This document shows, in pieces, positions 40,142-40,852 of a stretch of DNA of 64,000 nucleotides. The position numbers and the translations under genes are program-made. The notes under the pieces were generated by a model that saw nothing but the letters and a program-made list of their open reading frames with translations, was not told the origin of the DNA and made no database searches. Positions within the stretch are counted from its first letter, which is position 1, and each line of letters begins with the position of its first letter. Location: positions 124,001-188,000 of the forward strand of contig NZ_STGI01000012.1 in the NCBI RefSeq assembly GCF_004804275.1. The letters are read 5' to 3'. This DNA comes from Herbaspirillum sp. ST 5-3 (lineage in GTDB: Bacteria; Pseudomonadota; Gammaproteobacteria; Burkholderiales; Burkholderiaceae_D).

Positions 40142-40309
40142 TGGCAACTTTTCTCGGTGAGAATCGAAAGACTGGAGTCGGGACGGCAATAACGTAGCGT
40201 ATTGCTTCCGGCTGCTTTTGCGCAAGCGCCGACGACTGATGTTTTTGCGGTTCTTTTACTTTGTAGTTGATATATATAAATAGTAGTAGTGTTAACGCGC
40301 CTCAAAAAC

Positions 40310-40318
40310 TGTGGATAA
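40310..40318 (-). promoter_or_regulatory. DnaA box, perfect
   Basis: TTATCCACA read on the minus strand, in module 1, 20-odd bases from the TAG repeats. Confidence 0.75.
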
Positions 40319-40465
40319 CCCGGTAAACCAAAATCGGATCAATTGTTTACGTTCGGCATAAGTGCTGAATAATCGGTGTATCGCAAAAGGACAGATTCTG
40401 AATAAAAAAACGCGTATTCAGATTTCCCGGCTTGTCCCCATCTCCTCAAGCTTTTTTCCAAAGAC

Positions 40466-40474
40466 TTATCCACA
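40466..40474 (+). promoter_or_regulatory. DnaA box, perfect
   Basis: TTATCCACA on the plus strand at the far end of module 1. Confidence 0.75.
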
Positions 40475-40679
40475 GTCAGTTCTGCAATCCATCGTCGATT
40501 GTCGGCATGCTGCATAAAAGACAGGTTTCAGATGTTGTATTTCTGTCTAGCAGTCCATGGTTCCGTCTGGTTTGCGAAAGCGTTTTTTCTTCGCGCTCCC
40601 GGGCAAATAAAGCGCAGCGGGTTTTAACTTAAAGATTGATATATACGAATAGTGATAGTAGTTAACGCAGTGCCAAATC

Positions 40680-40688
40680 TGGGGATAA
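40680..40688 (-). promoter_or_regulatory. DnaA box-like, one mismatch
   Basis: TTATCCCCA on the minus strand, at the position in module 2 that matches the first box of module 1. Confidence 0.6.
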
Positions 40689-40836
40689 GCGCATTAAGCG
40701 CAATGAAATCAAGGCACTGCAGAATGGATAAGGCCTGAACAATGCCTGTATGACCGAAGGAAACTTCTTGGATAAAAATGACTGAAGGCAGCTTTACCGC
40801 GCTTGTCCTCAAACTACCCACCGGATATGCAGGGAA

Positions 40837-40845
40837 TTACCCACA
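40837..40845 (+). promoter_or_regulatory. DnaA box-like, one mismatch
   Basis: TTACCCACA on the plus strand, matching the far-end box of module 1 with an offset of 371 bases. Confidence 0.6.
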
Positions 40846-40852
40846 GGCCGGA

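Follow-up and report, generated by a model that had tools for sequence, protein, structure and literature searches.

The bipartite origins of B. subtilis and H. pylori are split by dnaA. A. fermentans likewise has a bipartite origin split by dnaA (PMC4403523), and Ralstonia pickettii 12D has two putative oriCs, at hemE and dnaA, which lie 291 kb apart and were predicted from skew and boxes (PMC4403523). The accessible part of a B. cenocepacia study calls the exact origin of the main chromosome unclear. How DnaA opens the duplex has been described in B. subtilis, where box-bound DnaA extends a filament over DnaA-trios (PMC8287927 and PMC10721633, in the sections available). The spacer of this basal unwinding system peaks at 10 to 13 bp, and up to 16 bp was allowed in the published search (PMC8287927, as far as its accessible text goes). 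Subscription journals and the DoriC tables aside, the literature searched, in the parts available, yielded no account of an oriC in Oxalobacteraceae that is both displaced and multi-module.

Here we describe a window of 64,000 nucleotides, which is positions 124001 to 188000 of contig C4 in a 5.80-Mb genome of 42 contigs. From its relatives, the source genus is probably Noviherbaspirillum, a member of the Oxalobacteraceae. The window very probably contains the chromosomal oriC of this Noviherbaspirillum species, in which a module of ~240 bp is present twice and would work like the DnaA-box/DnaA-trio basal unwinding system. This reading is well supported by comparative sequence analysis rather than by the skew of the genome itself.

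Two colinear modules in a gene-free stretch

The two modules lie between a nucleosidase gene and a gene for a LysR-type regulator. Each consists of an AT-rich tract, TAG trinucleotides, GTTAAC, and DnaA boxes. The stretch without genes is 711 bp, the length first annotated, if the nucleosidase gene has its ATG start (~40141), and 627 bp if it has a TTG start at 40225. The features are as follows, in window coordinates.

39374-40225, minus strand: phosphorylase-superfamily nucleosidase gene bordering the putative origin (PF01048; likely start near 40141)
40243-40483, plus strand: putative oriC module 1 (profile R1, model positions 10-253, 147.2 bits, E 9.3e-44; among the 48 training rows of R1)
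40267-40280, plus strand: AT-rich tract TTGATATATATAAA of module 1, predicted unwinding element (from sequence; one of the lowest-GC 35-mers in the window begins at 40251)
40281-40289, plus strand: three TAG trinucleotides of DnaA-trio type, module 1 (from sequence; motif as in the available part of PMC8287927)
40291-40296, plus strand: GTTAAC of module 1, near-invariant in the displaced modules of the family
40310-40318, minus strand: perfect DnaA box TTATCCACA, module 1
40432-40440, plus strand: weak DnaA-box-like TTGTCCCCA, module 1 (2 mismatches)
40466-40474, plus strand: perfect DnaA box TTATCCACA, module 1
40616-40851, plus strand: putative oriC module 2 (profile R1, model positions 14-250, 139.1 bits, E 2.8e-41; also an R1 training row)
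40636-40649, plus strand: AT-rich tract of module 2, predicted unwinding element (from sequence and low GC)
40650-40661, plus strand: trio-type trinucleotides TAGTGATAGTAG, module 2 (from sequence; TGA breaks the series)
40661-40666, plus strand: GTTAAC of module 2 (from sequence)
40680-40688, minus strand: DnaA box TTATCCCCA with one mismatch, module 2 (identical variant in the MAG L255)
40803-40811, plus strand: weak DnaA-box-like TTGTCCTCA, module 2 (2 mismatches)
40837-40845, plus strand: DnaA box TTACCCACA with one mismatch, module 2 (identical variant in L255)
40853-41728, minus strand: LysR-type regulator gene bordering the putative origin (PF00126/PF03466)
51741-51756, plus strand: parS TGTTTCACGTGAAACA, exact (motif as in the available part of PMC5450999)
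52537-52552, plus strand: parS TGTTTCACGTGAAACA, exact
52688-54613, plus strand: mnmG (gidA) (PF01134 match at C4 176709-177884)
55913-56683, plus strand: parA (AAA_31/CbiA)
56697-57584, plus strand: parB (ParB_N, HTH_ParB, ParB_C)

The initial annotation had described two colinear motif series at constant offsets of 369 to 371 bases, and rereading the sequence bore this out. The offsets are 369 for TTGATATATA (40267 and 40636), 370 for both TTAACGC (40292 and 40662) and the reverse DnaA box, and 371 for both CTTGTCCYCA (40431 and 40802) and the forward DnaA box. The two perfect boxes noted in module 1 (TTATCCACA twice) and the two one-mismatch boxes noted in module 2 (TTATCCCCA and TTACCCACA) are also present. 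Local alignment of the modules scored 105, against a maximum of 48 in 1,000 random sequences. The gene-free stretch has the DnaA-box cluster typical of an oriC: four boxes with at most one mismatch in 627 bp. Among 2,000 first-order random sequences, the count averaged 0.16 and never exceeded 2, so none reached four. This cluster is the densest on the 191-kb contig. An AT-rich element adjoins the boxes, with best 35-mers of 0.17 and 0.20 GC against a window mean of 0.595, and both AT-rich tracts are among the three lowest-GC spots of the window.

Under a trio rule of at least three consecutive trios with a middle A, module 1 has a complete series (TAG TAG TAG, 40281-40289). Module 2 reads TAG TGA TAG TAG (40650-40661), which leaves two consecutive trios on the side of the box. 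The spacer from the last TAG to the box is 20 bp in module 1 and 18 bp in module 2. There was no other site with TTAAC, 8 to 20 bp, and a TGKGGATAA box on C4 or in the first 100 kb of C11, the contig that carries dnaA. The predicted fold of the inter-module stretch was unremarkable (z -0.59). GATC sites are tied to Dam/SeqA-type control. Only one is present in the 627 bp from 40226 to 40852, so there is no sign of such control.

Genes around the modules

parS, parAB, and mnmG are 11 to 17 kb away, where they had been annotated: two exact parS motifs lie 11 to 12 kb from the modules, and domain matches identify mnmG, parA, and parB. dnaA is on C11, at ~30 kb, and the gap between C4 and C11 would be ~56 kb even if they were direct neighbours. 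A bipartite oriC has dnaA between its two parts; this dnaA, on C11, lies elsewhere. C11 also has similar intergenic stretches near 40.7 and 41.2 kb, with one perfect DnaA box each (L015:680-760 and L015:1165-1245). These are ~480 bp apart and ~10 kb from dnaA, without a module match.

Relatives of the LysR gene were found at 38 loci, with 62 to 96% identity in 36 and 30 to 33% in two. The closest named loci are L255 (96%), Noviherbaspirillum species (82 to 88%), and another MAG (87%). A full module is present at 27 of the 38 loci. The 11 without one are five Undibacterium, three Caballeronia, L271 (which is short), L291, and L292; L276-L278, L280, L281, and L287 have one full and one partial module. 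In six Noviherbaspirillum loci (L257, L260-L263, and L289), inverted modules flank the LysR gene and ~1.6 kb of further sequence. The modules are tandem in the window, L255, L258, and L259, in contrast to the inverted arrangement in those six.

Multiple modules are common in the family

A DNA search with the 627-bp stretch found matches in 63 of 145 family genomes at E 0.01. We also used profile R1, which was built purely from the sequences of 48 module copies, two of them from the present window. Run at E 1e-7 with stricter filters, R1 matched 132 of the 145 family genomes: 13 had no match, 35 had one, 76 had two, and 21 had three. Because two or three matches occur in 97 of 145 genomes, a displaced multi-module origin appears to be usual in the clade and not peculiar to the source genome, and these counts rule out the two modules as a quirk of that genome. 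A scattered repeat family was also ruled out, because the only other R1 match listed in the genome had an E of 0.9.

We then considered 25 chosen family genomes, 20 of them in six or fewer contigs; 15 of the 25 contributed no training row to R1. All 25 have two or three modules (E 5.2e-19 or better, with the next match at E 0.002), and five have three (G018, G048, G054, G096, and G123). Copies are mostly tandem. They are inverted and 2.5 to 2.6 kb apart in G128, G115, G058, and G081, and oppositely oriented ~0.8 kb apart in G015. Weak extra matches to the box-rich end of R1 occur in G048:C1:349303-349878, G123:C1:341025-341177, and G001:C1:5403459-5406746. These are ~11 to 14 kb from the modules and are possible further DnaA-box clusters.

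Among the displaced modules, 78 of 80 TTAAC-anchored sites read GTTAAC, and 78 of 80 lie 12 to 13 bp before the box; the 80 sites come from 51 of 80 loci, and with TTAAC as the anchor of the pattern, sites lacking it are invisible. The pattern found nothing in six loci with a dnaA-dnaN match. It found seven sites in 6 of 30 loci from other families, with GTTAAC in L228, L232, L242, and L235. Therefore, the hexamer is not peculiar to Oxalobacteraceae.

The modules are apart from dnaA in one clade

In all 21 family genomes in which positions were checked, the modules are apart from dnaA and 6.5 to 16.5 kb from the mnmG domain match. Where both positions are measurable, the distance to dnaA ranges from ~6 kb (g26) to several hundred kilobases, and it is 2.56 Mb along the contig in G141, taking the record as circular for genomes that start at dnaA. 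R1 gave nothing up to E 1 in all 21 stretches that span the DnaA domain with 1.5 kb on each side (eight begin at a contig start), and nothing in the 100 kb covered of the 103-kb contig C11 of the source genome. The suggestion that a two-module oriC separate from dnaA would be unusual for Burkholderiales is not supported, given these 21 genomes and the two or three matches in 97 of 145. Some genomes from other families of the order also have weaker close pairs away from dnaA.

Other genera have a single match. It lies between dnaA and dnaN in six family genera (g36, g11, g29, g34, g21, and g43), and beside or within ~1.1 kb of mnmG in four (g7, g41, g38, and g24, the last 1.1 kb off). The small g7 and g41 genomes (2.0 to 2.6 Mb; L305, L308, L309, L310, and L312) have one weaker module adjoining mnmG. 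A DnaA tree placed the six dnaA-dnaN genera among the outgroups and united the 11 displaced genera that it covered in a single clade (support 1.000). Two or more copies are found in 0 of 6 dnaA-dnaN genera and 13 of 19 displaced genera (Fisher p 0.005), a comparison of hand-chosen genera that ignores shared ancestry and scores g23 as multicopy although three of its seven genomes have one. The single modules beside mnmG at first suggested an intermediate step. An unrooted tree of MnmG joins g7 and g41 to g26 (0.990) and g38 to g33 (0.926) and leaves g24 unplaced, which makes copy loss as likely.

Outside the family, 30 loci were examined, the best-scoring ones only, and 19 of them have their match in the dnaA-dnaN gap. 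Weaker and in part incomplete close pairs at a distance from dnaA occur in single genomes of f49, f27, and f51. In f31 genomes of 6.8 to 7.8 Mb (L228, L232, and L242), there are three or four matches each, some far apart; those of L228 and L242 are flanked by Na/H exchanger and FAD oxidoreductase genes. R1 matches outside the family are weak, above all those of the class-wide search, and may partly reflect any dense DnaA-box array. The L246 alignment is mostly repeated boxes, so we claim homology there only loosely.

GC skew

The initial annotation predicted a skew minimum at 40.3 to 40.8 kb, and the source genome did not provide it. To the left of the modules, skew on C4 ranges from near zero to positive and is not negative, and the cumulative minimum on C11 is at ~25 kb, close to dnaA at 30 kb (the contigs are unordered). 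This left-hand part of C4 is scrambled when compared with G128; therefore, rearrangement may explain the wrong-sign skew.

Three relatives were sampled at 20 kb (G141, G048, and G128; G141 and G128 are of the same genus). In G141, the best minus-to-plus step of the sampled 0 to 1.5 Mb (17 windows) falls in the interval holding the modules, and 2 of 2,000 permutations reached its fit; dnaA itself, close to the contig end in this genome, is outside the range of the steps compared. In G048, a step at the modules falls 0.9 log-likelihood units short of the best one, which lies ~90 kb from them, and a step at dnaA falls 6.0 short. In G128, the best step is ~120 kb off, and both sites fit poorly (6.4 log units worse for the modules and 7.9 for dnaA). 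The skew switches at the modules in one and is compatible with them in another of the three. Counts of KOPS were too few to be of use.

Divergence of the two copies

The modules are 58% identical. They agree in 65 of 71 conserved columns (those with at least 90% conservation in 40 other modules), 40 of 72 middling columns, and 31 of 90 variable columns. Of the 71 conserved columns, module 1 retains 70 and module 2 retains 66. The off-consensus variants of both module 2 boxes are found again in module 2 of L255, which shares only 71% identity; this is suggestive, but not proof, that module 2 is a tuned weak module. Of the proposal that a duplication gave rise to a diverged second copy, the relatedness of the modules stands. 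The divergence needs qualifying: the second copy has kept most conserved columns and is also present in L255, the nearest relative found.

In a copy tree, the copies of the source genome and L255 group by position (0.999 and 0.896). Copies of Collimonas and Herbaspirillum also group by position, and the two Collimonas position groups join each other (0.950). Pairs join each other in Herminiimonas (0.984), Duganella (0.991), and N. humi (0.920). Concerted evolution or repeated duplication may underlie this pattern. The G140 inverted pair (C10:228103-228346 and 228854-229098; L045) is alike over 160 bases, pointing to a possible recent copying or conversion between copies.

Alternative explanations

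The working origin might instead be at dnaA on C11, with the two modules being a former origin, a minor one, or a relic that binds DnaA. Both skew anomalies of the source genome would fit, as would three perfect DnaA boxes beside dnaA (29889, 31484, and 31540), and the H. seropedicae genome paper, in its available part, places the origin at dnaA-dnaN or upstream of dnaA (PMC3093359). However, 100 of the 103 kb of C11 and all 21 DnaA-domain stretches lack the module that is conserved over the family, and skew points to the modules rather than dnaA in G048 and changes sign at them in G141. We consider an origin at dnaA very unlikely. DnaA reservoir and reactivation sites go by the names datA and DARS. 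The modules could be a site of that sort and not an origin, given that DnaA-box clusters occur in the origin region and a weak-box copy might tune DnaA. That is hard to reconcile with an AT-rich tract and trios in each copy, with matches to the same profile that fill the dnaA-dnaN gap in other lineages, and with the skew in relatives, and we give it almost no credence. The modules near mnmG in the 21 family genomes checked, dnaA on another contig, and the skew in G141 and G048 all uphold the initial annotation of a chromosomal oriC away from dnaA.

Within the oriC reading, module 1 alone might unwind, and module 2 might be the secondary DnaA-binding cluster of a bipartite origin. The off-consensus boxes of module 2, shared with L255, and its broken trio series argue for this, whereas its AT-rich tract, GTTAAC, and retained conserved columns argue that it could open too. 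In addition, 4 of 4 Herbaspirillum and 4 of 5 Collimonas genomes have perfect sequences for the two main boxes of each copy. The chance that module 1 unwinds alone seems to us only a little short of even.

Discussion

We propose that an oriC of two modules would be opened by DnaA as follows. ATP-DnaA would bind the reverse box after GTTAAC, aided by the downstream boxes. The filament would then grow over the TAG trios and open the TATATA tract for helicase loading. Both modules of the source genome probably take part in initiation. Module 1 would be the main opening site. Module 2 would either open as well or support the filament, two options with roughly equal odds. Judging from relatives with only one match, a single module can be enough, if their assemblies are complete. 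The second module may replace the DnaA-box clusters that a dnaA-adjacent origin gets from the dnaA region.

As judged from sequence comparisons, the putative origin of this clade is one that left the dnaA-dnaN gap and is now in the parAB/mnmG region, mostly with two or three modules. A fuller scenario is that, in one Oxalobacteraceae clade, the origin moved away from dnaA and turned into a compound one, with two or three modules maintained by selection, each able to open; that Noviherbaspirillum split these into a strong and a tuned weak module; and that duplication replaced the lost DnaA-box cluster. We offer this scenario tentatively, and as a whole it is rather doubtful.

These data suggest an origin away from dnaA for much of the Oxalobacteraceae, unlike its placement for H. 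seropedicae in the available part of PMC3093359; that species itself is absent from our loci, and the Herbaspirillum-like genomes of g26 are those with modules ~6 kb from dnaA. One family spans a single dnaA-dnaN module to displaced origins of two or three modules, tandem or inverted, and this series makes the reason for keeping two opening sites testable. Profile R1 and the tight motif (trios, GTTAAC, 12 to 13 bp, and a DnaA box) can flag origins in draft genomes.

The single dnaA-dnaN matches (L302-L304, L306, L307, and L311 in the family; L226 and L229 in other families) are also matched by R1, and the alignments of L302, L226, and L229 have a visible AT-rich tract, trios, and boxes, like the modules here. 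They differ in being one copy beside dnaA, in which a search for the TTAAC pattern that marks the displaced modules gave no hit. The basal unwinding system of the Bacillus subtilis oriC has a reverse DnaA box, spacer, TAG trios, and AT-rich tract in the same order (PMC8287927, available part). Here, however, the spacer is 18 to 20 bp instead of peaking at 10 to 13 bp, and it contains GTTAAC; the arrangement occurs twice, with the trio series broken in module 2, and is away from dnaA. With a spacer out of the published range, the modules resemble the canonical system, but we do not class them as one. Two nearby DnaA-box regions are also a feature of the bipartite origins in B. subtilis and H. 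pylori and of the two replicating elements of P. aeruginosa (PMC4403523). Unlike bipartite origins, the source genome has two modules of the same kind, which can be tandem or inverted, and no dnaA between them. R. pickettii 12D is in the same bacterial order and also has one putative origin away from dnaA (PMC4403523), but its two are 291 kb apart, whereas the two modules here are 370 bp apart.
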